A stretch of 42,916 nt of DNA from a virus, in the IMG/VR virus record IMGVR_UViG_3300020179_000060, positions 1 to 42,916 of that record; one strand, given 5' to 3'. The notes beneath the pieces are model-generated. The model ran no database searches. It was not told the origin of the DNA and saw nothing but the letters and a program-made list of their open reading frames with translations. Made by a program: the position numbers and the translations under genes. Shown here piece after piece: positions 8,930-34,367 of this stretch (position 1 is its first letter; every line of letters begins with the position of its first letter).

Positions 8930-9166
8930 TTACAATTTGGATGATAAATTGATTAATAAATTTTTTATGTCACTTAATTCATTTTTAATAGTATTCACCT
9001 CATATTCTAATCTATCTATTTTTTTAGCTTGTGATTTTTTAATACACATCATATCCATGTATTTTTCATACTCACTTATATTTTCATTTACAATGGCCCC
9101 AGATAATAAATCACGTTTAAAATCTGGGTGACCTTGTACTTTTGCTTTTGGATTATCTTCAATCAT
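8930..9166 (-). CDS. Small coiled-coil protein, 78 aa
   Basis: 78 aa; its ATG overlaps the stop of the 2200-aa gene as ATGA. The C-terminal 35 residues (IDRLEYEVNTIKNELSDIKN onward, ending LLINLSSKL) form a clear leucine-heptad coiled coil. The N-terminal part (KVQGHPDFKRDLLSGAIVN and YEKYMDMM) resembles a short phage protein family seen beside tail genes. It may be a trimeric fibre or baseplate connector or a chaperone; no function is established from sequence. Confidence 0.7.
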   Translation of the reverse strand: MIEDNPKAKVQGHPDFKRDLLSGAIVNENISEYEKYMDMMCIKKSQAKKIDRLEYEVNTIKNELSDIKNLLINLSSKL

Positions 9167-12100
9167 AATGCAAGTGCGATAGCTCTAAATTTTTGAATTA
9201 GTGGAACTCTGGATTGATCTTCAGCTGTCATGACAATTTTGACTGAGAATTGTTTGAATTGTGGGAGATTCTTCTCTTCAAAAATAAACTCCCTGAAATC
9301 AAAATCATCTTTAGAAGTTGGATAAGATTCTTTAAATTTTAATTCTCTATAGTTATTTTTCTCAAAATCATTGATACCATCATCTCTTCCTAATTTCACA
9401 TAAACTTTAATTTCATTTGAAGCAAAACGAACAGCATCAAACATTACTTGAACTGATGTAGATGGATTTGTTAATGATGCTTCTCTTGTAATATAAATTG
9501 ATTCATGTAAACTTCCATTTGGTTTAGTTTCATTATCAAATGATGTCTTGTTAATTCTGTTGGAAGTTAAACAAGCTGAAACTCTTTCCAAATCTAAAAC
9601 GGGAGAAATATTAGGATTGTCACTATCTAATTGTATAGCAAATTCTAGTGATTTTTTATTTGCTAGATATGTACTTTGATTTATATTTGATGCAATTAAT
9701 CTAGGACTGTTTAACTCTACAATTCCCGACATTGGAATTTCTTCATTTAAAACAAATTCATATGAAGGTTGTTTTTCGGAATTAGTACACGAAATACTTG
9801 TTGAAGAAACACTATTCATTCTTACCCTCATTGAAGTAGATGGGAATGTAGTATACATCAAGTTTGGTGTAATTGTTTCATACTGAATATTTCTTGTTGC
9901 ATATGCTTTATTCTGACCTCCATTAATAGATGCGGTTGCAATTTTTGGGAGAACCAATGTATAAGTATCGAGAGTTGGATTTCCAATTGCGTTATGTGTT
10001 TTATTAATATCAATTAATGGAATTCCATTCAAATTATAGCATTCTACAATTAATCCTGCAGCGTGTGCAGTGATTGAAGTTGAATTTTGTCCTCTTCCGT
10101 TTTGTGGAATTGTAATTGTATTTGTAGAAGCATTGACTGCACTATACTTAATAATTTCATCTTGAATTTTAATATAACCAGGGTTACTAGCAGAAATTGC
10201 TGCACCACCAATAATAGTATCAAGTTGTGATACGTCATCCAGAGTAAAATTAGATCCTCCAACTGCAGTTACTTGGTTTGTTGTCATTGGAGTTACTAGA
10301 GAACTATTTGCTGATTCTGATTGAATTCCAGAAATAGTAACTTTGTTTCTACTGGTATGCATACCATGATTTCTACTATAGATAGTTACTGTGGAAGAAC
10401 CAGCCGTCATTTTAATTGGGTCATTCTTTAGTTTTACTGTTTTCAATTCTTTATTCTCTAGATACACTTCTGCTGAAGAAGTATTTTTAAATGAAGCTCT
10501 ATATAATTTGAACTTCAAATCTTCATATTGGTCTGGAGTCCATGTAGATGCGTTCTGTGATTTAAATAAAACACCTGCATATGGTTGTTCAGAAATAATT
10601 TTTTTAGTTACAACATCTTCTTCACCCATTCGTGAAATCCACATCTTATAAAGGTTTGAGTCACTAAATACAACCAAACAATGTTCAATGTTTTCGGGAA
10701 TATAAACTGGTGATGGGAAAGTAAATGTTGTTGCTACTGTTCCGTTTTCTGATAGTAAAACTTCAGATGGTTTTTTGGTTACATCACTGAAAGGAAGAAT
10801 AGTTCCAGTTGGAGAACCATTAAACATAGTTCTTACTTGAATATTAACTGAAATTTTTGGATCTTTTGTTTGGAAGAATAAATCTACCTTAGTTAAGAAA
10901 CACCCACCACTTGTAGTTACCAAGAATGATTGAGCAAGAGGATCATACCAACCAATTTGTTGTTCACTTCTTCTTGTTTGTGTAATTGTTTGAGTTTGTG
11001 TTAATGATTGTGTTGAAACATTTGCATTTCTAACAGCAAGAACTTGTGCCTGAACTACACTCGATGTTCCTTCTGATGTGAACTTGGATTCTGCTGAAGT
11101 ATCGACAATTCCAGGAATTCTGCTATCGGTGTCACTAGTTGTCAATCTAAAAGTCGTGGAACCATTTGCAAATTGTGGGTTTCCCGAAATATTTGGATCT
11201 GGAATATATACAATTCCTCTCCACGCTCCATTTTTATCAGTAAATATTCTGGTTGTCTTTAGTGTTGCCCTTGCACCACTAGTAACACCAACAATACTAC
11301 ATTTTTTATCTTTAAATGTATTTAAATTAATGTAAGTTGGATCTACCAATTCATCAAATTCAATATTTAAATATGGTGTAGTTGTCGCATAGGTAGATCT
11401 TGTAGTCAAATCTGTATTTGTATAAGGATTTTCATTACCATAATCATATAAATTTTTGACTACACCAGTTACATAAAACTTATCACCAGAAATTCCAGAC
11501 TGAGTTGCTCCCGAAGTAGAACCAGAAGGACCAGCCAAAACTGCTCCAATCGGTGGAATTGGAAGAATAGAATTACCTTCATCGAGACCAACAAAAATTA
11601 CTTTCTCACCAACTTTGAATGATACACTATTTGATGGAGTTAAAGTTACTGTTTTACCACCAACAGACGCAGTTACATTTCCTTCGGAACCACCTCTATA
11701 CACTTCTAGTAAATTAGTGAGAGTATATGCAGTCATGTTCCTTGTATTCATAAAGAAATGTAATCTGGTATTTGGTTTCATTCTGTGTGCAGAAAGTTTA
11801 ACAATTCTTTCACGAAGATACTTAATATTAGTTTTTGATAATTCTTTATCACCAGTATTTTCAAAATCAGTTCTTTCGGTAACTACAGTTCTAGAACCAG
11901 AACGTTCCTGATTTACGGATCTGGATCCTGTAGTAACTTGCATGACTCTACGTGGAGCACCATTTCTAAATGATGGATCATACCAAACTGAGCTACGATT
12001 GTTCCAAGAACCTACAGAAACATCTCTCCATGAACCCCAATTAATCGGTCCAATTCCATCATCACCAACACCAGTTTCTCTTAAAGTTTGTTCAAAATTT

Positions 12101-15100
12101 CCTTCGACGTTTACTACATTATCAGCAACACGATTAGTAATAATCCATGTATCTTGTGTTGGAGTTAAATCAAGTCTACCAATCCACGCAAATACCGCAA
12201 ATGGATTTACGTTTTCTACTCTACTTGTTGCACTTTGATCAATAAGTAAAGTATTTGTATATGGTAAAGTAATTAGATCACCTGTCTTTTGATAATTAGT
12301 TGATTTTGTTGTGTTTAATTGAAAATCTACGTTTGTTGTATAGTGGATAGGTCTTAACGTTCCTGAACTGATATCAATTGCTGCTCTGTAATCTTTTTCG
12401 TAAATATCAGATACTAAGTTTGTCGAAAAATCATCTACAACAAAACCATTTTTAAATCTATTAACACCAGTACTATCTGTGATAGCTAATGACTTTGTTT
12501 CGAGTTCTAATAGAGTTAAAGATGTATAATATTCAACAGATTCAAGTCTCTGTTCGAGTTTACCAATATCCTCCATTGTATAACGTCTGTTTTTCTTTGG
12601 AGTTAGATTTACGTCAGTTACATTTCTGATATATGGAGGCATGCTAATATCAGCAATTAACATACTATTTTTTGGAATTTCTGGAAACTTAGGAGTTAAC
12701 GATGGACTACCTTTAATTACTTTAAATTCTCCAGTTTCGGTTAAAACTAACTTATCAAGTCTTGGAATATAAAAACTGTAATCACATACCAAATTTGAGC
12801 TTGGTTTTGTAAAATTTTTGTGTATTAAACTTCTAGTTCCTGGATTTAATAAAACTTGGTTCAGTACAAATGGTGATGATACAGTTCCAGAACCAGTTAA
12901 TCCACTTGACTGTGCGGTGATTCTATAATCAATAATATCAGTCAAGTACATATTATTATTATCAGATTCAATAGTTTCGTATGCTTGTTGATCTGTATAT
13001 GAATCCACTGTAAAGAAATCACCAGAAGTATGCTCATAATAATCATATACAATGACTAACATTCTTGAAGGAACGCTCGTTCCTGGTTTTCTTAGTATTG
13101 ATGAAATATCGTAAATTTCATCATCTAATCTTTTTTTCAGTAAATAATCAGAGGTTCTATCTTTATAAGAACCAGTGGTAACTGAAGTAACAGTTGTGGA
13201 AGCATCTGATCTAAAACAGTTTAACGTTTGATTTGCTTTAAATCTAAATGTTGAATAATAAATTACAGTAAGAACATTAGAAGAAATAGAAATTACCCTA
13301 CACTTGGTATTTTCTGAATTATCAAACAATATGTCACCAATTTTAATTCCAGAAGTTGAAGATACAGTAATTGTATCAAATACGTCAGATGGTAATGCTG
13401 TTGATGTTTTAACTTCTCTGACACAAATTAAATTTTTAACATCTGGGACACCGAGACAAATATCTTCATCAACATATCTTGTTCCATAAGAAGTTGTAGT
13501 AGATGTTTTTGCTTTATCTACCTTGAATACCGCATGTATTTTTAAAGTTTTATTTCTTAATGTTGGTCTACTTCTTGTGCAACTAACATAAATTGTCGCC
13601 GCCCCATTTGGCATTCCAGTTACAGTAACAGTATTATTAGCAGTTACTGATCCCACTTTTGATCCACTAGTTCCACTTGAAGGAATAGCAAGAACTGATC
13701 CACTTGCACTTTCACCGTCTGTATTTAAATTAAAACTTGCTACATTATTGTTAAAAGTTACAGTAAATGCTCTCATAATACTATAACTAATATCACTAAC
13801 ATTCTTGATAGTATTTTCAGCAAAACGAGTAGTTTGATTTTTTTGATTACTTAATAGTCTTGCAACAAGTTTAAATGCTTTTGTATATGACTGATTTGTA
13901 ATAGAACTATTTTGTATAATTGTTGCAGTTGAATTATTAGTTACAGTATTAATTCTAGTTTCACCATTACCCAATTTAATTCTCATATTAGTTTTTAATT
14001 CACTCAAAAAGTTTGTTTCAGAACCAGTAAAATTTGTATTGGATGAAATTGTAAATCCATCTCCAGTTAAAGCTCGTGAAGTTAGAATTAAATTTGCTTT
14101 AAAAGTAGATGATGAAAAATCTGATCCATCTGTAACTGAGTTAACTTCTTCAATAGTGTAATCTCTTATTACTAAAATAGTAACACAAGTTGCATTACGA
14201 CTATTATCAATCGTTTCACCTTCAATAAAATCACCAGATACTTGTTCTAGTGTTACCATCTTAGTTGTATTGTTGATTGCATAGACAAAACCTTTTGCAC
14301 CACTGACTCTACCTTCAACTAAATCACCATTTTGTACATTAAGTGTTCCACTAGCCCAAGATAATTCAGTAAAAGTACTAAAATCAGTTAAGTATAGTCT
14401 TGGATATCCACCAGAACCATCAGTTAATGTAATTGCGGTTGCTTTTGCAATTTCCTTTTCATTTGACTCATTTAATTTTCTATCATATAGATATATTCTT
14501 TGAAATGATCCAACGGAAAGACCACCAACCATTCCTGCAGTGTCTAACTCAAAATACTTTCCAAAATCTAAAAATTGTGAAACGTTTGATTTTGATTTAA
14601 AGGTTCTTGGTTTTTGTACTTCTACATAAGTAGATGATTGTTGTTCTAATTCATAACCCTTAACGTATGATTTTCCTGGACCAACAGTAATTGTAAAGAA
14701 ATCATTTCCATTAATAGCATTACCATCTTGTGTTGTTATTGCCCTGTTTAAAACTACTGTTCCTTTACTATTTTCTGAATTAATATCATATACACCACCG
14801 TTGAACAAATTATCCAGAGTTTCATTGACTTTTAGTTTATAATCTTCAATAGAATAGTTTCCAGACTCATCAAAAGTTCTTCTTGCTAAAGTTCTTTCTA
14901 ATTCTGCATAAACAGAACGGTCTACTTTATATTCAATTTTACCTTCTCTTACTCGTAGAAGTTCAATGAAATCTTTTCCTTGAATTTCATCTACACCTAC
15001 TTTTTCTAGAATACAAGAAACTTTTAATCTATCAGCACCAGGAGATGCATAGTTTGAATAACCGTATGAATTATCTAATAATGATTGATCATCTTCTGAT

Positions 15101-15765
15101 GTAATAATCTCTTCATAAATTCTCAAACCTACTTTATATGATGGAGTATTTCCATACTGATCAAGAATAATATTTTGAGATTCAACTTCTAAGAAAAATC
15201 CTCTTGCAAAATAAACACCATCATTTATTTTTGCATTACTTCCAGAAAATGCAGATGCGTTAGAAGTTGAAGTAATTGCTATCTGTTCTTCTGTATCATC
15301 ATCTACTAAAATTTCATTATTTGAAAAAGTTTTAAACTGTTTTCCTGTAACAGCATCAGTAATACCAGATGATAAGTATTTAATATAAAATGTTAATCTT
15401 TTCTTTACTGAAGTAGATGCACTAATACTAGTAATAATTCTTGCTCTAACGTTCGTAGATGTTCCACGGATAGTTTTTTCATGCAGAGAAGTTCTATAAG
15501 ATTCTACGGAAACTCCATTGATTAAATTTTGGACAGTAACACATTCTAATCTACTATCATATCCAATGTGTCCAGGAATGACCATAGATCCTTCCTTGAA
15601 CATATGTTGTCCAAATCTTTCTACTTGATTTTGTAGAATGGATTGTAGTGTAGTTAATTCTCTAGCTTGTACTGGAAAACCAGGCTTAAACAGAACCTTA
15701 TAAAAATTTTTACGTCTGTTAAAATCGTCAAAATAAGGAGCAATATTTAAATTAGTATCTTGCAT
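9163..15765 (-). CDS. Giant baseplate/fibre structural protein, DUF4815-like, 2200 aa
   Basis: 2200 aa. The N-terminus (NLNIAPYFDDFNRRKNFYKV, LFKPGFPVQARELTTLQSIL, FGQHMFKEGSMVIPG) matches a family of phage tail structural proteins (DUF4815). Around residue 1606, YDPLAQSFLV begins a conserved domain of about 190 residues with GGCFLTKVDLFFQTKDP, SPVYIPENIEHCLVVFSDS and WTPDQYEDLKFKLYRA, found in gp10-like cyanophage baseplate proteins. A beta module (GYIKIQDEIIKYS, GRGQNST) is near 1850-1900, and the C-terminus has FDAVRFASNEIKVYVKLGRDD. It lies where T4 has genes 9-12, so I infer that it forms the peripheral baseplate and fibre attachment. Own late promoter and AGGTAAAA ribosome site. Confidence 0.85.
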   Translation of the reverse strand: MQDTNLNIAPYFDDFNRRKNFYKVLFKPGFPVQARELTTLQSILQNQVERFGQHMFKEGSMVIPGHIGYDSRLECVTVQNLINGVSVESYRTSLHEKTIRGTSTNVRARIITSISASTSVKKRLTFYIKYLSSGITDAVTGKQFKTFSNNEILVDDDTEEQIAITSTSNASAFSGSNAKINDGVYFARGFFLEVESQNIILDQYGNTPSYKVGLRIYEEIITSEDDQSLLDNSYGYSNYASPGADRLKVSCILEKVGVDEIQGKDFIELLRVREGKIEYKVDRSVYAELERTLARRTFDESGNYSIEDYKLKVNETLDNLFNGGVYDINSENSKGTVVLNRAITTQDGNAINGNDFFTITVGPGKSYVKGYELEQQSSTYVEVQKPRTFKSKSNVSQFLDFGKYFELDTAGMVGGLSVGSFQRIYLYDRKLNESNEKEIAKATAITLTDGSGGYPRLYLTDFSTFTELSWASGTLNVQNGDLVEGRVSGAKGFVYAINNTTKMVTLEQVSGDFIEGETIDNSRNATCVTILVIRDYTIEEVNSVTDGSDFSSSTFKANLILTSRALTGDGFTISSNTNFTGSETNFLSELKTNMRIKLGNGETRINTVTNNSTATIIQNSSITNQSYTKAFKLVARLLSNQKNQTTRFAENTIKNVSDISYSIMRAFTVTFNNNVASFNLNTDGESASGSVLAIPSSGTSGSKVGSVTANNTVTVTGMPNGAATIYVSCTRSRPTLRNKTLKIHAVFKVDKAKTSTTTSYGTRYVDEDICLGVPDVKNLICVREVKTSTALPSDVFDTITVSSTSGIKIGDILFDNSENTKCRVISISSNVLTVIYYSTFRFKANQTLNCFRSDASTTVTSVTTGSYKDRTSDYLLKKRLDDEIYDISSILRKPGTSVPSRMLVIVYDYYEHTSGDFFTVDSYTDQQAYETIESDNNNMYLTDIIDYRITAQSSGLTGSGTVSSPFVLNQVLLNPGTRSLIHKNFTKPSSNLVCDYSFYIPRLDKLVLTETGEFKVIKGSPSLTPKFPEIPKNSMLIADISMPPYIRNVTDVNLTPKKNRRYTMEDIGKLEQRLESVEYYTSLTLLELETKSLAITDSTGVNRFKNGFVVDDFSTNLVSDIYEKDYRAAIDISSGTLRPIHYTTNVDFQLNTTKSTNYQKTGDLITLPYTNTLLIDQSATSRVENVNPFAVFAWIGRLDLTPTQDTWIITNRVADNVVNVEGNFEQTLRETGVGDDGIGPINWGSWRDVSVGSWNNRSSVWYDPSFRNGAPRRVMQVTTGSRSVNQERSGSRTVVTERTDFENTGDKELSKTNIKYLRERIVKLSAHRMKPNTRLHFFMNTRNMTAYTLTNLLEVYRGGSEGNVTASVGGKTVTLTPSNSVSFKVGEKVIFVGLDEGNSILPIPPIGAVLAGPSGSTSGATQSGISGDKFYVTGVVKNLYDYGNENPYTNTDLTTRSTYATTTPYLNIEFDELVDPTYINLNTFKDKKCSIVGVTSGARATLKTTRIFTDKNGAWRGIVYIPDPNISGNPQFANGSTTFRLTTSDTDSRIPGIVDTSAESKFTSEGTSSVVQAQVLAVRNANVSTQSLTQTQTITQTRRSEQQIGWYDPLAQSFLVTTSGGCFLTKVDLFFQTKDPKISVNIQVRTMFNGSPTGTILPFSDVTKKPSEVLLSENGTVATTFTFPSPVYIPENIEHCLVVFSDSNLYKMWISRMGEEDVVTKKIISEQPYAGVLFKSQNASTWTPDQYEDLKFKLYRASFKNTSSAEVYLENKELKTVKLKNDPIKMTAGSSTVTIYSRNHGMHTSRNKVTISGIQSESANSSLVTPMTTNQVTAVGGSNFTLDDVSQLDTIIGGAAISASNPGYIKIQDEIIKYSAVNASTNTITIPQNGRGQNSTSITAHAAGLIVECYNLNGIPLIDINKTHNAIGNPTLDTYTLVLPKIATASINGGQNKAYATRNIQYETITPNLMYTTFPSTSMRVRMNSVSSTSISCTNSEKQPSYEFVLNEEIPMSGIVELNSPRLIASNINQSTYLANKKSLEFAIQLDSDNPNISPVLDLERVSACLTSNRINKTSFDNETKPNGSLHESIYITREASLTNPSTSVQVMFDAVRFASNEIKVYVKLGRDDGINDFEKNNYRELKFKESYPTSKDDFDFREFIFEEKNLPQFKQFSVKIVMTAEDQSRVPLIQKFRAIALAL

Positions 15766-15805: not shown

Positions 15806-17377
15806 TTAGAATTCAATGACTAGTTTGATATCTTCAATTTGGTCATTTGAACGAACAATTGGTTTTCTATGTTCAACATATAAAACACTTCCAGAATATT
15901 TTTGAACTTCTGGGTTTGCATAACCAGCAGTGAATATAACACCAGCAATAGTCGATGCAGCACCATTAATTCCTGATGTGTATGCGATATCTGGGTTTCC
16001 ACTAATACCAGATACTTCACCATTAACTGCGTTCAAACCAGAGAAAGGAACTAATTTATTTTTGTTTGCACCAGTTATGGCAAGACCACTATATTCATTT
16101 TGATAGTATCTTAAAATTTTATTAATACTGTCCCAGTGAATTACTACTCCCTTTGCATTAGTAGATGACTGATTAATTGTTTCACCAATTGTATAATTAT
16201 AATTAAATGAATCTGGAAACTTGATTGCTTTACAAGTAGAAATCGTATCTTCTGTTTGTTGAGTAGTTTCTGCAAATCTATATGGGTTTGCAATTAGACC
16301 AAAACGTCTAAAAGAAATATCAACTGGGATATCACCAGAACCATCTAAAAATTCTAATTTTGAGTTTACGAGAACACGAAATGCACCAAGTTCTGTTTCC
16401 ATGGAACTTCCGTGACCTTCTGGAGGTGGAATAATTGCTTCTAGAAATGTTGTTCCATTGGATGATGTAATACCAGTCATTGCTGCAGCAACAGTAGTTA
16501 AGTTGATATCTACATATAATTTACTCATATCAATTTTTGCATATGAGTAACCAGAACCAGTTGATTGTACAGCAACTGTTTCAATTTTATTTGCAAAAAT
16601 TCCAGAATTTCCAATAATAATTCTAGCAACACCAAGATTACCATCTCCAAGAATAGGAGTATAAAAAGTACCTGGTGTTAAATTGGAAGCTCTCGATTTA
16701 ATGATAATAGTATCAATTGCACCACTTGATGCAGCAGTTTTTACTGTAGAATCTGTTGCAATGGGGATAAAGTCACTCGTAACAAATTTCAAAACTTCAT
16801 CTGTTGATAACTCATATAAAAATTTCCATTTGTATCCATCCGATGTTGTAATAATACTGGAAGTTGAACCACTAACGGATGGTTCTGCAGAAGTTCCTGT
16901 TTGAACTCCGTTTGGATTTTCTGGAGTAGTACCATTATAAATGCACTTGAAAATTTGATACTTACTATTCATAATGTAAAAATCTGCATCAAATAATTTT
17001 GATGCTCCACTTGGTGCTAATTTTGTAGTACTGTAATCATGTCTGTACATATCATAAATTGTTCCACTGGACCAAGTTTTTTTGGGAATTACCTGTTTAA
17101 CATCTGATGGTTTAACTCTTTTCATTGAAATCATATCATCATAAATTTCAGATAGGTCATTAAAAGAATCTTCTGGATTAGGAGGCAATGCATCAGAAAC
17201 GTTTACATTTCCACTATATTTTTCAGAATTCCAAATTTGTGATCTTCCGATAAACAGATAAATTTTACTCCTTTGTACATCTGTATCAGATACAGATATT
17301 CCCGATGGTTCAGATAATGATTCCACAAATTGTTGTGCAGAAAACAATCTAAAACTATCTGTAATTAGTGCTGGCAT
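15806..17377 (-). CDS. 8: Baseplate wedge protein gp8
   Basis: 523 aa (T4 gp8 is 334). In T4 it is a dimeric wedge subunit bound to gp6/gp7/gp10. Recognisable features are IYLFIGRSQIWNSE near the N-terminus (T4 has FITFGRSEPWSS), VKQVIPKKTW (T4 VIPRRDW), ITTSDGYKWKFLYEL (T4 GDGYVWEYLFEI), and the C-terminal YVEHRKPIVRSNDQIEDIKL, which parallels T4 MENRPPIIMAMDQTEEI. The extra length comes from modules in the second half, including GSGYSYAKIDMS and FNYNYTIGETINQSSTNAKG. Late promoter immediately upstream. Assignment is strong. Confidence 0.92.
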   Translation of the reverse strand: MPALITDSFRLFSAQQFVESLSEPSGISVSDTDVQRSKIYLFIGRSQIWNSEKYSGNVNVSDALPPNPEDSFNDLSEIYDDMISMKRVKPSDVKQVIPKKTWSSGTIYDMYRHDYSTTKLAPSGASKLFDADFYIMNSKYQIFKCIYNGTTPENPNGVQTGTSAEPSVSGSTSSIITTSDGYKWKFLYELSTDEVLKFVTSDFIPIATDSTVKTAASSGAIDTIIIKSRASNLTPGTFYTPILGDGNLGVARIIIGNSGIFANKIETVAVQSTGSGYSYAKIDMSKLYVDINLTTVAAAMTGITSSNGTTFLEAIIPPPEGHGSSMETELGAFRVLVNSKLEFLDGSGDIPVDISFRRFGLIANPYRFAETTQQTEDTISTCKAIKFPDSFNYNYTIGETINQSSTNAKGVVIHWDSINKILRYYQNEYSGLAITGANKNKLVPFSGLNAVNGEVSGISGNPDIAYTSGINGAASTIAGVIFTAGYANPEVQKYSGSVLYVEHRKPIVRSNDQIEDIKLVIEF

Positions 17378-17403: not shown

Positions 17404-17410
17404 TATTTAT
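17404..17410 (-). promoter_or_regulatory. T4-type late promoter upstream of gp8
   Basis: ATAAATA in TAATAAATAAATTT on the minus strand, abutting the stop codon of the 4779-aa gene and 26 nt before the gp8 ATG; an AAGGAAA ribosome site lies between. Confidence 0.65.
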
Positions 17411-20400
17411 TAAAGTTCTTTATCATATATTACATAAGTGCTACTACTCCAATTCTGTGGATTTGGTCGAGTGCAACTTTCTAATTTAAGTGTGGTTGGA
17501 TTTGCGATAGTATAGTATACGGTTTCTTTTCCGATAATTACACTATGATAGTCATACCCTATTCCTGCATTAATAATTGTTACTTGGACAAATTTTCCAG
17601 TTGAACTTAGAACAGGTTTTAATTCTGCTCCAGATCCACCACCACCTTCAACAATTAAAATAGTATTTGCCAAATCATAACCAGAACCCGCATTAATAAT
17701 ATCAACTTTTACAATTTCTCCCCCGTAAACATATGGTTTCAACACCGCACCAGAACCACTAGAGACAGAACCAGTTGTAGAAATAATTTTAATATTAATA
17801 TTACTTGTTGGGAGACCACTGACCGTTTGCATATCAATATCAACACTAGAAGTTGTTACATTGGAAGTTAATCTATATAATTTTCTAGTGAATGAACTTG
17901 AGAACATATCTTTTCTCACAATTTCAATAGGACGATTTATTCTAAGTGTTGGAGCATTAAAATAATTAAACCCAGAATCAATAATTTCTAGATTTGAGGT
18001 AGAAACTCTACCACCATTTGTATACGAAACATCTTTGACAATAATTTCACCACCAGATCCAGTACCAACAGCACTAATTACTAAGTTTTCTGGATAATCA
18101 AAACCCGTTGAAGTTACAGTTGCATTAGTAATTTTACCATTAGAAATAACTGGTGAAACACTTAAACCAATTCCTTTTGTAATACCATTATATGTGGAAG
18201 TTCGAAGTAATGATGGACTAATTACTTGTGTAACTTTTCTAACATCAGTATCTCCACTCAATTTTATTGTGTCTCCAACTTGAATATTTTCAACCCTGTC
18301 AATTACACTTACGTCTTCTTTTCTTCCCATAAAATCATACAACATAATTTCTACTGTATTTGAAGCTGGTGCATTAGTAAACACAATTCTATTGTGATCA
18401 ATATAATAATCAACTAGGGAATTTTGAATATATCCATCTTTGATTACTAAAATTTGATTTTCATAATCTCTAGGTCTTTCAATTTCTGCATTGGGATAAT
18501 AATCTAAACCTTGATATTTCATGTAAAATATTTTAGTTGAATTATTAAATCCTGTTGTAATTTTATCCAATTGTTTGAACAGACCTAAGTTTCTAATAAT
18601 AAATTTATCTGTTGAAGTAGGAGCAACGGTAAAGTTAATTTTACTCTTAATGGGACCAGTTAAATTATATTCTTCAAATGGTTCTAGAATTTTATCATTC
18701 TTAAATACTAATAGATTTCTTGGGCTTGGAACACTATCATCTTCAACAGTTCCAGTTGGAACAAAGTTTTTGGAATTATAGAATAATGGGAATGTCTTAT
18801 TGGATCCGTTGAAACCATTATTGATATTATCGAGGATAACTAAACTATCTAATCTAATTGCAAATATATTAGCTGCCGGGCCATCTGGATCTGTATCTAA
18901 TGGGGAATCTAGTTTAAATTTATTATTATTCAAATAAGTAAATCCACTATTATATGTTTGAACAACACCGTTTACCTGTACAATCAATGAATCATCAATA
19001 ATATTTCTGTTTTCCGAACCAAGTTGACCTAGAGCGTCATCACTAAATGAAAATGTATTTAATGGTCCACTATAAAAAACACCAGTTCCATAACTTTTTT
19101 GTACCACAACTCCAACTGTGATTGATGAAGTATCTTGGATATTTGTTACATAACCATCTTCCGATAAAGTTCCAATATATGTTGTTTGATCCACTATTGA
19201 TGAATCTAACAATTTAAATGCAATATTTCCTGGTGTGTGTCCAGACGAAGGTAATAATTTAATTGTTGACGAATTAATAATTTTATCAACCTTTGTTTTG
19301 CCATCTGCGAGATTTTCAAGACGTAAAAGTTGATTATTAAACATTGCAATAATATAAATTTCGTCTGTACTATCATTTGGTGGATTTTGTCTAAAGTTTA
19401 TATAACCATTTTCAACAAAATAATCAATATATGGAGTTCTTAGGACACCATTTACTGATATTAAAATATCAGAAGTATTTCTCCATCTAGTAAATGGAAT
19501 TTTATTTCTAATTAATCTAAATCTAGTATTAGTTCCATTCATTCTTTCATCAAAAGAATCGACTTTACATAGATTCATTCTTGAAAAATCAGTTATCATA
19601 ACATTTGATAGATTAGTTACACCATCAATAAAGTTTATCCTAGATCCAGCATAATAATAAATTGTTCCAGAATTAACTCCCCATGAATTATCATCATATG
19701 GTGCGCCAATAATTAATGAATTACCAGAAGAACTCATTGATAATGAATCACCAAACCTATCATAAATCAGTGCATTTTGATTTGAAATAGTTTGTGTTAG
19801 TTGCCAGGGACCGTAATTATTTCCAAGTTGCTGGTTCGAAAAATCATAAACGTATACTTTTCCTTCTGGTTGATTAGTAATTTCATTTGCCCTATTTGGA
19901 GAACCAATAACAACTCTAGTTCCATCTGAACTAATTGAAACAGCAAATCCAAATTCCTGATCATAATCTGGATTTGGTGGAGTTATTTTTTGTTCTAGTA
20001 CCCATTTAAAACCAGTAAGATTTGTACCACTTCTTACGAATATATATGCTGTCCCACAAATCAAATTAATACTTGAATTTAATTTTTGGGAGATCATATT
20101 TTCTCTATCAAAAATTTCCGAATCATCCGAAATGTATTGTAAATATTCAAACGCTCTAGTTTGAATAAGAGTATTTGATGTATCTCTTGGTGAACCAACA
20201 ATAAGTTTATTGCCATCTTCAGTGATAGAAATAGAATTTCCAAATGAATCAAATGGTTGTACATCATCTGGTGTAATTTGATCTTCTTCATACCAAAGAT
20301 TTTCGAAATAATTGAATATATAAACTTGTTGTCTAGTACCAACCGACAAAATTGAAGAATCTGCAGAAATATCCAAAGATATTCCAAAGTTTTCATTAGT

Positions 20401-23400
20401 TTGTGGATATTTTGGAGTAATTTTTTTATCAAAAAACCATTTTCCAAGTTCTACATCAAAACGATAGATGTATACTGCTCCAGAAGCAATTACGCCATTT
20501 ACATTTTCAAATGGTGCAGAAACTGCTGCAATTTTTCCAAATTTATCAATGGATACTTGATGACCAAATCTTGCTCCACTGTTAATTCCAGTTGGTGCTT
20601 TAACAAAGGTATTTCGAGAAACAGTAACTGCTCCGCTAGTAGAAATTACTGTATTATAAAATGATACTGCTCCAACTTCTTCATTTGTTGCGGTAGCCCA
20701 CAACGGACATCCAACAACTATTTTTTCACAGTCTTTTGTTATATCAACCGAATAACCAAATTGCAAACTAGAACCAGGATATCCACGATCTGTTCTTGAA
20801 ATAGAAAGTGATGTTATTAATGTCCAATTATTTTGTGTTTTTCTGTATAATCTAACTACCCCAGTAGAACCAATAATAGTTGTTTCTTTTAATGGTGCAG
20901 ATACTACTAAGAAATTTCCACTATCACTAATTTTATTTGAAAAACCAAATAAACCTCCAGGTGAATCCTCCAAGTAATCAAATTCTAGAACTTGTGATAG
21001 ATTGGTTTTTTGAATTTTATATGCAACACCAGGATTTTGTGTAATTCCATTAACATTTACTAAAATAGAATCTTCTTTTTCAACTGCATATGGTAAAGTA
21101 GAATATGTAATGTCAAACGCAGTATTTGTTGTTCTCTCCTCAATATTTAAACCACCACCACCAGTTGCAATATAATCCAAAGTAGTTGCAAATGGAACGA
21201 AATATATTTTGATATCATCAATTAAAACATTAATAGTACCATCAAATAAAATTACAAATTCTCCATCTGGTAAAATATTTGGGGATTGATATAATTCATA
21301 ATTTGAATAATCAATAAAATCATTATCGTCCGTGATATAATTTAAAATCGTAAAAAATCTATTATCAGGAATATTATCTGGAACATCTGTTGTCCAAGTC
21401 CAAGAACCAATCTGCGGATTATATTGTTGCATGACACCATTAACAAATATAATCATAGTCTGAGTAGCTAAATCAAGATTTACTGTATTTCTCAATTTTA
21501 AACTATTTGAACTAAATTGTTCAAATTGCAATTCTGTAATTTGTGTGGTAGTATTAAATGCCATTATGAATAGTGGTTCATTGATCTGAGGAGAATCAAC
21601 AAAAGTTAAAGCATTATTAGAATATGAATATGAATTCAAGTAATATTGATAGATACCTTCAAATCTAAATGGGAATATTTTATTGACGTTGTTTACTAAC
21701 AATGGATATCCATCTTTTGTTAATGTAAATGTATTTCTTATGCCATCAATATAACCAGGAATGTCTAATAAGTAATTATTTGGATCTTTTACTGAATTTG
21801 GTGAAAGTAGTAATTTTCTGAAATACAGTAATTTAATGTCATCTGATGGCAATGGTGGTTCATCAAAAGATACTGTATTTAATATGGAAGTTACAAAACC
21901 AGATCCAAATGGCTGTAATACACCATTTCTTATTGCGAGTACATCTCCAGAATTTCTTACATAAAGTGGAATACCATCTTCATTTAAGAAGAATGTTTTT
22001 CTAGATCCATCAAAGTAATCTTGACCTACTACAATATCTTTAGAATCGTATGTACTTTGGAAATAAAATATACAACAATTACTTCCAACCGAAGGTGCAT
22101 TAACGAAAATAATTTTTTGTCCGTCTTCATCATAATTAAGAGTGTAATCTTCACCCAAAACTAAAGGTAAATTGTTGATAGTGACCAATAGTTTTTCAGA
22201 ATCATTTAAAATAAAGTTTGTGTGTATTAAATTTGCAGATGGCGATGGCGGTGGTGAAGTTAGATTTCCTTGACTATCTCTAAAATCAAATTCATTTAAA
22301 AATGTTAATTCTGAGTTTGGAGATTTTAGAATAAATTCTTTTTTAATTCCATTAAATTGAGAAGAAATATTTTCGACAAGTTCAACAAAACTCGATGACT
22401 GCTCTGGGAAAGTAGTAACAAATTTTGTATCATTACCGTAAATATAAGTTCCATCTACAGAAGGATTTCCAGATGAAGTTCCAGAATATGCAGTTCCTGA
22501 TAATAGTTTTCTCTTTACTTGTTGATATTTGTTATTAAAATTGACTTTTTTATTAGATTCAAAAGTTCTAGTAATTAGTTTGTCTCTTGTAATGTTGAGT
22601 GAAGTTGATACAAATCTCTCTTCAAAAACACTAGTATCGAGATTTTCTGTATAACATTTGTTATTAATTAACCATCCATGAATAAACGCTGTACTGGCAA
22701 TTGGTTCATCAAAAGTCAAGAAAGTTCCTGCAATAGTAAATCTAGATTGTTCTATAACAGAATCAGTACTATTTTGAATTGCACCATTTACAGAAAGAAG
22801 TAATGAGGATCTTTTTACAGTAAGTGTTGATAAGTTGTTAATTTTATATGTGTAATCATTTATTTTAGTAAAGAAAAGTTTCTGTAATGCATCAAAGTAT
22901 AAAGCAAATACTTTGGATCCTTCTGGAAATATATTTCCAGTTGTTAAAACTACTACATTTCCATTTAAAATACTATATAAAGTCGAATCTAAGACAACAC
23001 CATTTACAGATACTATTAATTTGTTTTTAAGACTATTTGAAATATTTACTGTTTCTCCAGACCTTTGCAGAACAATTCTATCTGTTCCATCCCCGATAAT
23101 ACTTCTGAATGTAACAATATCCTTTGCATCTTTTGGTGGAATTTGTGCGGTGAATAATTTGGTATATTGTGACATGTCACCACCAAAATCCCATGAATCA
23201 CTTATTACTGGTAAAAAATTCTCAAAGAAATCACTAACTAAAGAAGATGTTTGAATAATAAAAATTTTATCTTTATCATTTACAGGGAAAGCTAATGAAA
23301 GTTTATTCTCATCAACAGTATATGAATCATTTGGTTCTTGTAATACTCCGTTATATACGACTAAAGAATTTAAAGTATCAGTTTTAATTCTTGGTGAGAA

Positions 23401-26400
23401 TAGATATTGTGGTTTGTAATAATAAACATTTTCTCCATTGGTAAATTGCAATCCATTTTTGGATGTAATGAATAAAATGGTGTTTGAAATATTATCTACT
23501 TTTGCAATAGCTTGAGAAGTTCCACCAACAATTACTCCACCTGCAGATAATGCTTGTGGAGCAACATCATTCAAATATAGAATTTGTTGATTGATAACAC
23601 TATAGTTTAGTTTAAGATTTAAAATATTTTTAAGAGTTAAATTAAAACCAATAATATTTTTAATAATTCCCTGTGTATTTTGATATACCGATTGGTTACT
23701 TTCTATAATATGTTTTCCAAATAGTTTGTTACCAATAGCATGAGAATTTTTATAGATCAAATTATACCAATCTTTTACATTAGTATTGTATCCAATTAAA
23801 TATGAATAAATTTGATAATAATTACTATCTGTTATTTTTTGTGTTGCTTCCGAAATAAATCCAATATTATTTGTAAATCTTGGTTTTAAAACAGATGTAA
23901 AACTAGATTTAAATCTGGTCTTTGATTTTGTTGCTTTTAAAATAGTTGAAAATGGTACTTGTCTTTCATCAAATAGATATGCAGATTCCCAAATATAATT
24001 ACCAAAAAAATCTTTAGAAATTATATTACCACTAATTTCTTTTAATTGAACTGTGGAATTATTTTTATCATAACTAACAACTTTAGCTGTAGCAATAGTT
24101 TCAAAAACTGGTAATTTTGAAATTTTGTGTAAGTTTTTCTCATTTATAAATGAACCAGGTAAAAGAGTAATTGCTGGACCTGCTGGTATAGTCGAAAGTT
24201 GAATTGTAGTTGCATCTACAATTTTTACATATAACTGTACCTGGTTAGCAAAAATATCAGGAGGATTTGTAACAAGTGGTAATCCAGTGCATTCATATAG
24301 AACCAAATCATTAGACTTAAAATTGTGATTTGTTTCAAATATAATATTAGATTGATTTGTATTAACAGATTGTATATAACTTACCGCATCTGTTACTTTT
24401 TTAATGCTAATAATGCTATCCTTATTTAAAACACTTCTTGAAAGATTTGCTCTAACTAGTGCTCCACTTCCTCCAGTTCCAGAAGCATCAACAATTAGTT
24501 CTGGAGTATCTAATAAGAAATTACCACCAGATACTACTTCAACTGTTTGTAATTTTCCACTCTGAATTGTAGTTTTAAATTGAATTGGTGGGTCATAAAT
24601 TCCAGCTAATTCTGTCAATGGTATATCTTCTTTTACTTTAATTGTAGGTTCTACATAATAATTTTCACCCCTATCCAAAATAGTGACTGAAGAAATTTCA
24701 TAATTTTGCTTTAATTTTAAAACAACATCACTTTGTAAATCAAAGTCAATTGTTCTATCATTTCCGTAAAAGTCACCAACAGTGATATAATCAATTTTTT
24801 TAATCTTACCAATTGTGTTACTATCAGCTTGTAATTTTGCTCCATATCCATAAGATGAAGACACACCAGTAATTTCTGGTAATTTTTTGTATCCTTTTCC
24901 ACCATCAATAATTTTTACTGAACGAATTGGTCCAGAAACAGTTGATGATCTTGTATACCAATCGATCGAATTCATGTTATATGATCTTGGAGATGTAGAA
25001 TGTATTCTAACATTTCCAACATTAATATTGACTATTCCAGGTAAACTAAAATACTGCCAATTCAGTCCTACTACTGAAGATCCAATAGTTTTGATTAGAT
25101 TTATATTATTAGTCCACCATGCGTACATCATTCCGCGTGAAGGATCTAAAGTAAATGTTATTGGTGTTGTTCCAAAAATTCCAGTAGTGGTATTAAAATC
25201 ATTGTCATAAACACCACGTTGAGATCCATCCCTAACTCCAACATAGTAGTTTCCAATTTTTGTTTTATCAATTGGTGACCAACCAAGTAATCTGGTTAAT
25301 TGCCATGCAGTTGTGCCTTGAACACCCTGTCTGGTTAAAACATATACACCATTTTGAGAAGGAATTGTTTGATTTTTAACTAAAACACATTGATTAGTAT
25401 TACCTACTTTAATAGTTGTAATACTGATTTGTAGAGTGACATTTTGTGCAGTTTGTGTTGCGAATGCTGGAATGATGGTTGACCCGTCAAAAGAAAATAG
25501 TTCAAAACTGTTGTTTGTGAAGTTTGGAACCATAAAAGCATTAGGAGGAATTCCGTTACCAGAAATATTATATTCAAGATATCTAATTTGGTTAAACTTA
25601 TTTCTTTCACTTTGACTTAGTGTAATTACTCTACTTCCTGCAATTGTACTACCAACAATTTGTATAACTGTATCGACAGCTGGGAATCTTCCTGCATCAT
25701 TTCCAGTTGGTCCAGTTAATGTTGTTTCTGTTTCTTGTGAAACTGGTAAATTTGCTATAGTTGCACAGCTAACAAGAACTAAATCGGAATGAGTAACTAC
25801 CATTCCTACTTTTAAATTTGCAATATTACTTTGGGAAATTCCAGTTAGGTTACCGACGCTATCGATGGTTAAGTTAGTTAATTCTAAATTACCATAATTA
25901 TAAACTTTATACTCCTCTGGAATTGTTTTACTAAACTTAAATTTATAATCATCAATTTTTTCGATAGGATATGTTCCTTCAAAAATTTCATTTTCAAAAT
26001 CAAGAGTAAAATTCTTAACTGTTTTTTCTAAAATTTCATCACGAACTTGTAAGTATACATTTGGTAAATCAGATTCTTTTGTAGTTGGTTTAATAAAAAC
26101 TTCATGATTATCGATCAAATATGCGTTTTTGTTTAAAAATAAAAATTGACCAATATTATCTTCGGAAAAATATAGTGATTTTGATGCTAAATCAAAAGAA
26201 ATAATATAATTTACTGGTGGTGTAATGGATCTTCCAGAATAAGGACCTACTACTGATCCGTTTTCAGCAAAATATTCTGGATATTCGATGGTACTCAAAC
26301 CGTTTGGATTTAAATTTAAAGGATCATATGCATTTAAAATTGGATTGCCATTACTATCAAAAGTTGGATTTCCGTTTGAATCTAATACTGGTCGTGAATC

Positions 26401-29400
26401 AGAATTTCCCACATATATATCAATATAAGAACCGCTATCTCTAACAAATTGAACATAAAAATTTTGTCCAGTAGTAATATTAGTTGCATCATATGGGGTT
26501 ATAATATTAGTAGGATTAGTTGGATCTCCAATTCGTCCAGAAGAAAAAATCATATCTCCATAATCTATAACAGACCCATCTGGAGCAAATTTTCTAGCTT
26601 TTATAGTTGACCAATTAAACGGAGTATTTGAATCTTTTGTATAACGAATAAAATATTGTCCTCTGCCTAGATCATAACTCCAGTAAACCGATACCTTAAT
26701 TTTTTTGAGAGAGAATGTGTACTTACTATTTTCATATACTGTAATATTAGAAGTTTTTTCCAACCCAAAAGCTTGATCCTCAAAAGAATAAGATTTATCT
26801 GTGGTGAATGTAATTGGTGCGAATTGAGTTGGATAAAATTCACTTGGAGTAATTGTTATTGAAGAAGCACTATCAATACTCGTAACTGTAGCTCCATCCC
26901 AAGATAATACACCAGTATTTGTGATAGTTGAACCGACTTCAATTCCACTAATACTTGATAGTCCAGTAATTGTTCCATTATTATATAATGTTCCAGTGTA
27001 AGTTTTTCTGGTGCCACTATAAATTGTATCTACAAAATCTACAGATGGTTTAATTCTTTCTACAGTAATTTTATCACCAGATTCTAACATGTGTGGTTTT
27101 TCTTGGTGAATTTGAATTTCAGCCAATTCACCATAAATGTATAATCTATCATTTGATGTCTGGACTGTATTTAAACTAGTTGTATAATTTCTTGTAATTT
27201 GTCCACTTACTTCATCAATAACAGCATTAAACCCAGAACCTCCTGTTTCATTATTATTAATAACTAGAGTATCTCCAGTTTTATAATTATTTCCTGCATA
27301 ATCAATATAAACATTTTCAACACCACCAGTGTAAAACTGAGTAACTTCAGATCTTGTTTTACTTGAAAGATTACTTGATTTTGGAAAATATGGAAAATCG
27401 GAATCGTCTGATTTAATTCTTTTTAACCCAGGCGGCAGAGAAGAATTTAAATATTTTTGTGTGGTGTTATACGAATCAATTTTATTTCTAAAAAGTGGTC
27501 CAATAAAATATGGATAAAACTCTGTTGCAAAATATGCATAAGTACCAGTGGGGAAGTCTGGTGTTACACAGAACTTCCCATTATACTGATCCAGAGTACC
27601 AAACTTTGGATCAAATACATAATCGTCTACTAGAGATCCAATTGGATATGTGTCAACACTTGGTCTATATGCAGGAATTGGAATAACTATTTGAGCTCCT
27701 GTTCTTTCATCAGTAAATGTTCCGTATCTAATTTTATATGAAGAAGTCTGTAGTGTAACACGTGATTTTAAATCACTTGTAATTGGATCAGAAAATGCTA
27801 ATCTTCCATAAATGGGGTTACCATCATAAGCCCAACCAATTATACTAGAATGTTTATTCCGTGGAATAATAATTTCATTTGTGGTATAAAAAACATTTGG
27901 ATCATAAGGTCTAGGTAGTCTAAGTGTTACACTGCTTGCATTAATTACGTTACTATTTGGTATATTGGGTACTGATGTAAATGCAATAACAGTTGCTGCA
28001 ATTTTTGTGTTCATTAAAGTAAATGATACTGAACCTGTGACTGGGCAATTGTTGATGCGAGTTCTATTAGAGGCTGTTTGTGAAATAAATTGACCTAAGT
28101 GTATTCTAAACTGATCATTATTTTGTTTAAATATAATTAAATTTGTCAAATCTGGAATACCATTAGCATTAACAGCAGAAGGGAAATTAATAATAATTCT
28201 ATCACCAGTTTGTAATCCGTGATTGGTAGCATTAATAGTCCAAATAAATGCATTGCCCGTGGGCAGGTAAGATGGTTGTTCAGGTCTTACAAATGTTCCA
28301 AATCGTGAACTGTACTGTGTATCAATAATTACTTCATCACCAATTTCAAAAAATCCAGCAGTTTCTCTTGTAAACTGATATGTTACATTGGTAAAAGATG
28401 AATCGAAACTTGTAAATACTGGGATATATGGAATAACAGTAGATTTATCTAGTCTGTTTAAAATAGGGGCAGTTGGTTTAATTTGCAAATATTCTGGATA
28501 ATTTTTTGTATCTGGTACTTGATCTGTAGTAACTAAAGGTGAATCTGAATAGTTAAATACATACCCACCATAATTGTCAATTTTTGAAGAAAGAACTTCG
28601 GGAATAACTGGTGTCCATTGTGTAATCGTTGTTTTTGTAGCAAATAATGACCCTCTAGAAATAAATTTTACAACTGGTGGTATTGTGTAATTTTCCCCAC
28701 CATTGATAATATCAACATCAATAACTTTTCCGTTAGAATCGATTACAGCTATACCAGCTGCATTTTTCCCATCACCAATAAATTTGACAATTGGAGGTAC
28801 ATAGTAATTTTCACCTTCTTTATCAATAATGACAGATCTTACTTGATTATTAAATATTTCAGCAAATCCTGTTGCACCAGATCCAGTATCAACTATAAGT
28901 TTAGGATTTTCAGTATAACTATTTTTTCTTTCCGAATCTGTTAAAGTAATTGTTTTGTATGCTAAAGGATTGAAATCCAAAGAGTTTACTTGGGATCTAG
29001 TAAATGGACGAAAAGTAATTGGATCAATTGCAACACCAACAGAACCCGACATTACAATATTATTTTGTGGAACAGTAAAATCAATTCCAGGTCCTGTTAC
29101 TTTAACAATTGGTGTTTTGGTGTAATATTCTCCAGCACTTGAAATTAAAATCTTTACAATTTTTCCACCAACAACTTCTGTTCTAAGTTCAGCACCTTTT
29201 CCTGTAATATCACCCGAGGATCTTGATACTGTAACTGTTGCTTTTTGATCGTTTATACCAACAGTTCCACTAAATGTCAATAATGATTCGTCGATTCCAT
29301 CTAATGAGACTGAAACAAATGATGAATAAATTGATATTATTTTTGAAGTTCTTGTAGTAAGTACTTGAGTAGATTCTCCTGCACCAGTAATTTTAACATA

Positions 29401-31760: not shown

Positions 31761-33947
31761 TTAGCAGTTATCTAATGGTAGTCCTGGATCTAAATCTTTT
31801 ATTGTAATAATTGGATTTGTAGCATCTACAAAACCACAATCTTTACTATTAAGTTCGATAATCTTATCATATGTACCACCTTTACCATCTGCATAAACAC
31901 CCCACTTATTGAATCCCTTGCAGTATTCGTTTAGAAGTGTTCCAGCATTAGGATAAATTGGGTCTCCACCAAAACCACAAGAAGAACTATTTTGTTTAAT
32001 TAGTTTGGTGTATGTTCCACCAGTAGAATTGGTGAAAGTTCCATATTCATCAAATCCTAAACAATATGTACTAATTAATTGTTCACTTAATGGTGTTTCA
32101 TCATCACCAATTTCATCTGTAGGATAATCTAGTATTATTTCTTCATCACCATCATAATCATCTTCTGGAATAATTTCCAAACCACAAATTTCAACATCAA
32201 TTAGTGTATCATTTGGAAATCCTATAAATTCTGGTTCGGAAGGTACAACTGTAATATTTATTATCTGTTCAGAAGGGAGATTTAAAGTAAATTCCAAACA
32301 TCCTGTTTTGTAATCAATAGTTCCGACGACTCCTAAAATTACATATTTTTTAAATGTAGCATCGTATCTTCTTAAAATTAATGAACCATTTGCATTATCA
32401 GTGATGTGTACTTTATATGATCTCCCAACATGATCGAACCCTGTCGTTGTTGCTGAAATAAGGTTACACTTTCCTGGAGAAATAGGTGTTGTAGTTACAG
32501 ACCCATTTCCAATTGGAGTTCCAAAACAAATGATATATTTTCTATTTCCAGCTGTTCCTGTCAATCTATATTTCAAAACTGGTCTTGAAATTGCAGTAGA
32601 AATAGAACCTTCAGAATTTAGAATATCTCTTCTCAATGAAGTCTGTGAATATTTTGAACCAAATCCTGTTGTATCATCACCAGATCCAAAAGTAGAAACA
32701 ATTTGTCTTACTGTATTTCCAATATCAGCCTGTGACAAATTAGTTTTTGAAGTATTATATAATATTTTAAGATAAATGCAAATTCTGACTACAAATGGAT
32801 CTAAAATTGTTGGAAATACCGCACCAACAATATAAGCTCTTAATTTTTTAGTTATGGTATCTTTTACAGCAGCAGATAATATATCACCAAACTTTGGTTG
32901 AATTGTAATGAATACTTTACCATACTGGGGAGGATTCAGAGTTTCACCACCAACAACTCTAAGAGCTTTAATATTTGGGTAAATACTCCTGATAATAGAT
33001 TCGTAATCAGCAGCAGTTACAGCTCTGTCTTGACTGCTATAATATCTTGGTGCATTATATTTGATTGATTTAATACTTTCAAATTCTGATCCATTAGAAG
33101 ATGATGTTACTAAGGGAGTAACTTGAACACTTTTTGATGATACTACAGTTGGTTTAGTATTATAGATAGATGCAACCGAACCAACAAAAATAAAGTTTTT
33201 AATACTATTTGCTTTTGACCCGTTAGTAATCAAATAACGAATATCTATTTGCTCACCATTTTTTACTGCTCTTCCAAGAATATCATCACCAAATATAATT
33301 TCATATTTTTGATCTTGAACTTCTTCTACGAAGAAAATCTTACTTGATGGCGTCAAATCAATAATTGTTTCTGATCTAGTATGAGTAATTCCATTTACCT
33401 TCACAGATATTTGACTTGAATCAATTAAACTATTTGGTATTATAAATCTTTGATTTTCATCTTTTAAATCTACAATGTATGATGTATCAAATAAATTTCC
33501 TTCATATAGTTCAATATTTTTAAAAGTTGCAGTATTATCTTTAATATTTGCTCTTTTGGTTTCTAGTAAATTAAATTTATAAGTTTTGTTGTTTAAGACA
33601 CTAGACAATACTGGACCCGCATCTATTTGAACGTAATCTCCAGTTACATCATTTACTGTAATATTAATCTTCATACATGCTGCAGTATAAGACTTTGGAT
33701 TGTATCCAAGTCTATTTGCAAGTGCAACAACATTATCACGTATAACAGCCGTATCAATATTCAACTCATTTGCAACCATGTTGATGTTATAGGATTGCAA
33801 ATGAGCATTATATGCTAAAAGATCCAATAGAACCGATATATTCGATCCTTCATAATCGAAAGAATTAAAATCTGAATTGTTTCGTAAGTAATTCCGTAAA
33901 ATGTACTTAATTTCTTTTGGATCTAACGGTGAAATTGGTGAAGACAT
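31761..33947 (-). CDS. 6: Baseplate wedge protein gp6 with C-terminal Cys repeats
   Basis: 728 aa (T4 gp6 is 660). gp6 dimers form the inner baseplate ring and belong to the baseplate J superfamily. The N-terminus has KEIKYILRNYLRNNSDFNSF, ISVLLDLLAYNAHLQSYNIN and ANELNIDTAVIRDNVVALAN, all typical. The J-type core includes RYYSSQDRAVTAADYESIIR and PQYGKVFITIQPK. After about residue 600 comes an acidic linker and two tandem modules of about 40 residues (YC.GF....G....GGTY.K.I..NS..CGF), which T4 gp6 lacks. It starts 3 nt after the gp25 stop and is followed by the giant gene after an 11-nt gap. Confidence 0.93.
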   Translation of the reverse strand: MSSPISPLDPKEIKYILRNYLRNNSDFNSFDYEGSNISVLLDLLAYNAHLQSYNINMVANELNIDTAVIRDNVVALANRLGYNPKSYTAACMKINITVNDVTGDYVQIDAGPVLSSVLNNKTYKFNLLETKRANIKDNTATFKNIELYEGNLFDTSYIVDLKDENQRFIIPNSLIDSSQISVKVNGITHTRSETIIDLTPSSKIFFVEEVQDQKYEIIFGDDILGRAVKNGEQIDIRYLITNGSKANSIKNFIFVGSVASIYNTKPTVVSSKSVQVTPLVTSSSNGSEFESIKSIKYNAPRYYSSQDRAVTAADYESIIRSIYPNIKALRVVGGETLNPPQYGKVFITIQPKFGDILSAAVKDTITKKLRAYIVGAVFPTILDPFVVRICIYLKILYNTSKTNLSQADIGNTVRQIVSTFGSGDDTTGFGSKYSQTSLRRDILNSEGSISTAISRPVLKYRLTGTAGNRKYIICFGTPIGNGSVTTTPISPGKCNLISATTTGFDHVGRSYKVHITDNANGSLILRRYDATFKKYVILGVVGTIDYKTGCLEFTLNLPSEQIINITVVPSEPEFIGFPNDTLIDVEICGLEIIPEDDYDGDEEIILDYPTDEIGDDETPLSEQLISTYCLGFDEYGTFTNSTGGTYTKLIKQNSSSCGFGGDPIYPNAGTLLNEYCKGFNKWGVYADGKGGTYDKIIELNSKDCGFVDATNPIITIKDLDPGLPLDNC
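31828..32093 (-). repeat. Two tandem Cys-containing modules at the gp6 C-terminus
   Basis: Residues of about 619-660 and 668-707 of gp6. Copy 1 has STYCLGFDEYGTFTNSTGGTY and ends NSSSCGF; copy 2 has NEYCKGFNKWGVYADGKGGTY and ends NSKDCGF. The shared skeleton is YCxGF(x4)G(x7)GGTYxK(x5)NS(x2)CGF. Nucleotide identity is lower, so the duplication is old or the module is under protein-level selection. Confidence 0.75.
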
Positions 33948-33950
33948 CTT

Positions 33951-34367
33951 TTAACTTTCTCTTACTAGTAAATACGATAATTTTTGTATTACTTCATTAC
34001 CAACAATTGTATATTCAATGACTATTTCTATATCATTTAAATCATTATCACGAAGAATATCTATTGATGTTAAAGAAATTCTTGGTTCAAAAGCTTTTAA
34101 AATATTTTCTATTTCACTAATAACTGAATTTACTTCTGGATACTCAGTTTCAAACAATTGAGAAGTAATTCTAGTCCCAACAAATTTATTAAATGGTCTT
34201 TCATTAATCGCAATTGCAATTAAATTTCTAACAGAAGCTTTAATTGCATCTTCATTCTTTAGAACATTAATGTCATTTGTGCTTGGATTACGTGTAAACG
34301 CGAAGCTAATATCCTTAAAACTTTTGGATACGTCTCCTAATTTAGTTTTGGCTGAATACCTTGGCAT
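33951..34367 (-). CDS. 25: Baseplate wedge protein gp25
   Basis: 138 aa (T4 gp25 is 132). It is the small wedge component that links gp6 to the sheath, related to the TssE/GpW-gp25 lysozyme-like family. Key parts are SFKDISFAFTRNPSTNDINV, a loop NEDAIKASVRNLIAIAINERPFN with the conserved EDAI...N...ERPF pattern, and the C-terminal IVIEYTIVGNEVIQKLSYLL. Upstream gap of 47 nt has no ATAAATA motif; a weak TATACT/TATATT-rich stretch is present but I cannot assign a promoter there. Confidence 0.95.
   Translation of the reverse strand: MPRYSAKTKLGDVSKSFKDISFAFTRNPSTNDINVLKNEDAIKASVRNLIAIAINERPFNKFVGTRITSQLFETEYPEVNSVISEIENILKAFEPRISLTSIDILRDNDLNDIEIVIEYTIVGNEVIQKLSYLLVRES

Follow-up and report, generated by a model that had tools for sequence, protein, structure and literature searches.

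The virus record IMGVR_UViG_3300020179_000060 from IMG/VR is a linear sequence of 42,916 bases, analysed here over its full length (the window). It encodes a 4779-aa open reading frame (ORF) that, by gene order and N-terminal homology, is the gp7-position baseplate protein of cyanophages, where "gp7-position" is a label for the place in the gene order and not for homology to T4 gp7. In the C-terminal half of this protein, a 454-residue insert is predicted to form a closed seven-bladed β-propeller of the FG-GAP_2 family, and the combined evidence from sequence and modelling strongly supports that the propeller is nested inside a single β repeat at a hairpin turn. Receptor or surface binding is, as we infer, its likeliest role.

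An FG-GAP_2 propeller within a β repeat

A sequence-only reading of the window had recognised seven units opening with FG, and we located their starts at residues 3601, 3664, 3728, 3788, 3836, 3933, and 3999 of the ORF. The profile search that this reading had suggested as a check gave a strong FG-GAP-type match, namely to Pfam FG-GAP_2 (PF14312), with 111 bits (E 3e-32) for the whole ORF and 132 bits (E 8e-39) for a 600-aa region alone, far above chance and against a curated cut-off of 23 bits. PF01839, the integrin alpha FG-GAP family, had no match in the virus record in a search that was positive for 3 of 14 control genomes, and was thus ruled out as the family of the propeller, which therefore belongs to the FG-GAP_2 branch. 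A PDB sequence search with the propeller returned nothing significant, a direct search of viral_contigs with it found no close homologue, and no report of FG-GAP in phage tails was found in the open-licence literature searched. Calcium binding had been considered doubtful, and rightly so. No DxDxDG loop was found when the insert was scanned. In integrins, the longer calcium loops sit at the A-B loop position; all seven A-B loops of the propeller are only 5 residues long, too short to make such loops probable, and calcium binding was ruled out on this ground.

Structure prediction was carried out with AlphaFold2 on an alignment of 13 propellers, the window's and 12 from other viral ORFs, which share one register with seven units each, except for one fragment truncated at its start by a contig end. 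The complete seven-bladed propeller anticipated from the sequence was recovered in the model as 28 strands, consisting of an N-terminal strand followed by six four-stranded blades and a final three-stranded one. The N-terminal strand (residues 3585-3591, 20977..20997; model strand E51-57) aligns with the W-strand of the other units and is predicted to serve as the velcro strand, completing blade 7 as its outer strand to give a closed propeller of seven blades with four strands each. All coordinates within the ORF refer to the minus strand (-). In the model, blades 1 to 4 span residues 3605-3648 (20806..20937), 3667-3717 (20599..20751), 3732-3777 (20419..20556), and 3791-3825 (20275..20379), respectively. 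Blade 5 (residues 3839-3922, 19984..20235) has a long B-C loop with a helical insertion of about 32 residues (3861-3892, 20074..20169; helices H327-337 and H346-358, predicted with low confidence), which is not present in the other 12 aligned propellers. Blade 6 follows at residues 3936-3989 (19783..19944), and strands A-C of blade 7 at residues 4002-4034 (19648..19746), with strand C lying next to the velcro strand so that the two ends of the propeller are adjacent. Most of the propeller has a predicted local distance difference test score (pLDDT) above 80, with 222 residues at 90 or higher. In a Foldseek search against the PDB, integrin alpha chains ranked first (E 8e-16). The integrin-alpha pattern proposed earlier thus held for the fold but not for the family: the window propeller shares seven blades, the FG motif, and the top structural matches with the integrin alpha propeller, whereas it differs in lacking PF01839 and DxDxDG, in its 5-residue A-B loops, and in an identity of only about 15%.

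The C-terminal half of the ORF is an array of β repeats of approximately 86 aa (NG-Q type), of which the arrays in relatives contain 10-24 recognisable copies. Using a profile hidden Markov model (HMM) of this repeat built from relatives only, we found that residues 3541-3588 match the first half of a repeat and residues 4028-4061 the second half. The first half proper (residues 3541-3579, 21013..21129) covers HMM positions 12-55 with 26.2 bits alone, and the second half (residues 4034-4062, 19564..19650) covers HMM positions 46-79 with 17.5 bits alone. Joining residue 3579 to residue 4034 restored a gapless repeat of 45.0 bits, above every intact repeat in the protein (best 41.7 bits, the score of the next intact repeat at residues 4063-4141, 19327..19563, which was modelled with a pLDDT of 81). 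In control joins with other pieces of the protein, 1 of 2000 reached 45.0 bits, and that one used the true second half of another repeat. As 3579|4034 is the best rejoin, the insert comprises 454 residues (3580-4033) and extends over 19651..21012. The span given earlier, 19651-20952, was correct at 19651 but not at its other end, which has to be moved some 20 residues towards the N-terminus; the insert is longer than first reported because the velcro strand belongs to the propeller.

The split point is at HMM position ~50, the host repeat is interrupted without residue loss, and the reading frame runs through both ends of the insert. In the AlphaFold2 model of the neighbouring repeat (residues 4063-4141), this site corresponds to a two-residue hairpin turn (YFVE-NG-YINF) between strands E53-56 and E59-62, and the same turn in relatives carries insertions of several to about 20 residues. 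The flanks are indeed of a different repeat type, as had been noted, with the added precision that the propeller lies within one copy and not between copies. The idea that a whole domain was inserted is likewise upheld by the gapless rejoined repeat and by the relatives without the insert. The base composition of the insert is close to that of the host gene (GC content 31.8 vs 30.1; GC at third codon positions, 12.6 vs 13.6) and shows no sign of a recent transfer of the propeller.

When the host repeat was searched with Foldseek, the top matches were phage tail complexes, including that of cyanophage A4, and T7-type fibres, although these were weak (best E 0.013, probability 0.99), so that any likeness of the host repeats to T7-type fibre anchor domains is faint. 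No Pfam fibre-anchor match was present among the matches listed. The repeat that precedes the host repeat (residues 3415-3520, about 21190-21507) has an apparent insertion of about 40 residues in its own second half, and excising it raised the score from 17.1 to 26.5 bits.

Occurrence in cyanophages

Related cyanophages without the insert had been named as something to look for, and they were readily found. The relatives L004-L014 (handles of our locus set) have no FG-GAP blades, and the whole contigs of the nearest ones, L014, L009, L012, and L013, gave no FG-GAP_2 match. In the BLAST alignment with L014, the nearest relative, the query skips from residue 3441 to 4070 across 43 subject residues. 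Because close relatives do without it, the propeller is probably an add-on. Of the gp8-anchored loci, 45 extended at least 9 kb upstream, and blades were detected in only two of these (L059 and L060), which represent one IMG/VR virus with 99.98% identity; the absence in the others covers about 9-10 kb upstream of gp8. In that virus, the gp7-position protein has 7027 aa, adjoins gp6 and gp25, and contains two propellers. In L203/L204 (G001:C1:26622-47702), a 7027-aa gp7-position protein was seen with complete seven-bladed FG-GAP_2 propellers at residues 4532-4893 and 5891-6244.

The closest named parallel is the 7022-aa protein of the Synechococcus phage S-MbCM6 (Namakavirus), which is annotated only as "virion structural protein". 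Like the window's protein, it follows gp6 and is a giant baseplate protein with a seven-unit FG-GAP_2 propeller (153 bits). Its sequence is collinear with that of the 7027-aa G001 protein, which matches the window protein in its N-terminal region; of the two propellers, S-MbCM6 has the first and lacks the second. In contrast to the window's propeller, that of S-MbCM6 follows a Laminin_G_3 domain, lies outside an NG-Q repeat, and is not its sister in a tree. A fourth gp7-position case, L197, is found on a 5-kb contig, beside gp8-like sequence. The propeller sites in the other gp7-position proteins differ from the site in the window. In a tree of 18 propellers, whose deep branching is not resolved, the gp7-position propellers form one clade in 0% of bootstrap trees, and the tree requires at least two changes. 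Judged from this patchy occurrence and non-monophyly, the FG-GAP_2 propeller is a rare module that has been acquired repeatedly.

Elsewhere, a degenerate FG-GAP DNA pattern retrieved 16 loci, for none of which gp7 synteny was shown. FG-GAP matches were found in the named cyanophages S-TIM5, S-TIM61, S-TIM66, S-SCSM2R, S-H9-1, and S-H9-2. S-TIM5 F417_gp054 (407 aa, "virion structural protein and packaging") resembles the window's case in having an FG-GAP-type propeller in a cyanophage virion protein but is a small free-standing protein outside the gp7-position protein. L096, L178, L156, and similar loci encode giant virion proteins of ~4100-4200 aa with an FG-GAP_2 propeller near residues 2070-2530, and these proteins (phrog_10938 for L096) are distinct from the gp7-position protein. 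A 3692-aa "hypothetical protein" of Sinorhizobium phage Phosso (L002:5007-16085) contains ~40 FG-GAP blades, forming several propellers in tandem. In L130, residues 330-970 hold FG-GAP blades with large inserts and a recurrent "Y..GDIV.Y.G.LW.A" motif that looks carbohydrate-binding-like by eye.

The gp7-position protein and its neighbours

The 4779-aa ORF (17410..31749, minus strand; phrog_2885, "baseplate wedge subunit") belongs to a minus-strand T4-like structural module, which includes terminase, sheath, and gp15, gp14, and gp13-type neck proteins (gp13 named by position), as well as a DUF4815 giant protein, gp8, gp6, and gp25. Three genes, all on the minus strand, served as synteny anchors: a gp25-like baseplate wedge subunit (33951..34367; phrog_261, E 7e-33), a gp6-like baseplate wedge subunit (31761..33947; phrog_219, E 4e-147), and the baseplate wedge subunit gp8 (15806..17377; phrog_438, E 2e-151; Pfam Phage-Gp8, 75.7 bits). 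The order gp25-gp6-4779-aa ORF-gp8 is that of the cyanophage gp7 position. A search with the N-terminus of the ORF gave matches in 464 phage records. Almost all come from Synechococcus or Prochlorococcus phages or cyanophages, the best listed matches are at 35-44%, and many of the records are annotated as gp7 baseplate wedge initiator. Residues 1-599 had no sequence match in the PDB. A YHYH domain is found at residues 1297-1415 (27505..27861, minus strand; Pfam PF14240, 73.9 bits). According to PMC7029224, cyano- and pelagimyophages lack T4 gp7 and have VrlC in its stead, and by its position the DUF4815 giant structural protein of the window (9163..15765, minus strand; phrog_358; PF16075, 201 bits) is probably this VrlC.

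One tail gene present in relatives is missing here. L004, L009, and L014 have a fibre-like ORF of ~600-900 aa (phrog_15769) between a 113-aa L-shaped-fibre-assembly ORF and gp13, and at this position L012 encodes an ORF that is alike in size and sequence. In the window (7771-8910), the fibre-like ORF is absent and the 113-aa ORF and gp13 abut; the fibre-like ORF may still be encoded in a stretch of the genome not yet sequenced. Two further ORFs stood out. At the beginning of the window (1-1962), a sheath-like ORF, truncated and at least 654 aa long, is matched by homologues at its two ends only (38-44% coverage, in two pieces), which suggests an extra middle domain. A 360-aa Pro/Gly/Cys-rich ORF (35456-36538) without a PHROG or Pfam match is possibly a spike-tip protein, as judged by eye.

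Possible roles of the propeller

Propellers at phage baseplates are already known. In phiKZ, the periphery of the myophage baseplate bears a seven-bladed propeller, part of gp131, for which a receptor-binding role has been proposed but not proven; this propeller is a C-terminal domain (PDB 4GBF) and not a nested insert like the window's (PMC4901313), and the PDB search with the window propeller gave no sequence match to it. The receptor-binding protein Gp45 of phi11 has a propeller with a cavity fitting GlcNAc, closed by an N-terminal strand (PMC4901313). Gp45 differs from the window propeller in having five blades, in forming a homotrimer, in belonging to a Staphylococcus siphophage, and in not being of the FG-GAP type.

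By analogy with such systems, we think it probable that the nested FG-GAP_2 propeller in the gp7-position array binds the host surface with its top face. The propeller would be seated on the hairpin of one β repeat through its two adjacent ends, and ends lying side by side are the geometry that a hairpin insertion requires. Since the standard propeller topology puts the C-D connection at the bottom, the bottom face would be joined to the repeat array, leaving the top face free and pointing away. The free face would bear the longer B-C and D-A loops, together with the helical loop of blade 5, and its binding partner may be a glycan or a protein in the envelope of the host cell, which would help adsorption. 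Receptor or surface binding would suit an accessory domain that sits on a peripheral baseplate protein near lectin-type domains, such as the Laminin_G_3 domain beside the propeller in the gp7-position protein of S-MbCM6 and the YHYH domain in this ORF. Several points weigh against this interpretation. It presumes that the C-terminal array lies exposed on the virion, and it draws on phiKZ gp131, whose own receptor role is a proposal (PMC4901313). Moreover, the flanks in the propeller model have a pLDDT below 50 and the halves of the host repeat are unfolded there, so the nested geometry is derived from the sequence and the separate repeat model.

The main rival is that the partner of the propeller is not the host but a second tail protein, for instance a fibre or an accessory wedge protein, with the propeller acting as a docking platform inside the virion. 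Propellers often mediate protein-protein contacts, as in the integrin alpha propellers that pair with the beta subunit, and the missing fibre-like ORF after the 113-aa L-shaped-fibre-assembly ORF means that fibre attachment may differ in this phage. However, close relatives assemble the same baseplate without a propeller, and the free-standing propellers of S-TIM5, annotated as virion structural, indicate that the fold needs no gp7-position context. We regard docking as a real possibility, though clearly not the expected one.

The propeller could also be a weak, sticky accessory for environmental or non-receptor surfaces (polysaccharide, particles, or other cells), or a nearly neutral modular insertion. 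The patchy spread, with blades in one virus only among the gp8-anchored relatives, and the tolerance of the hairpin turn for small insertions would agree with this, but the seven blades are intact and in frame with a composition matching the host gene, which argues for long retention under selection and makes such a role quite unlikely. That a bacterial FG-GAP gene was mis-assembled into the phage contig is scarcely credible. The virus is known from a single 42.9-kb record and the search of viral_contigs found no close homologue of the propeller; nevertheless, the insert keeps the reading frame across both junctions and splits one repeat with no residue lost, its composition equals that of its surroundings, and independent cyanophage genomes have propellers in the same protein.

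Returning to host-surface binding, a bolder version, which we consider unlikely, is that NG-Q hairpin turns in gp7-position proteins are plug-in sites for whole folded domains, nested there as host-recognition heads, and that the propeller, displayed from the baseplate array, has replaced the relatives' fibre gene in this phage. T4-like cyanophages are abundant, and host recognition by their baseplates and fibres is poorly known. FG-GAP_2 propellers move repeatedly between cyanophage virion proteins (S-MbCM6, S-TIM5, S-SCSM2R, and S-H9-1), and most of these propellers are not annotated as such. The 454-residue insert, with exact boundaries and present in one virus but not in its relatives, would provide a test case for a host-recognition head on a baseplate wedge-type protein.

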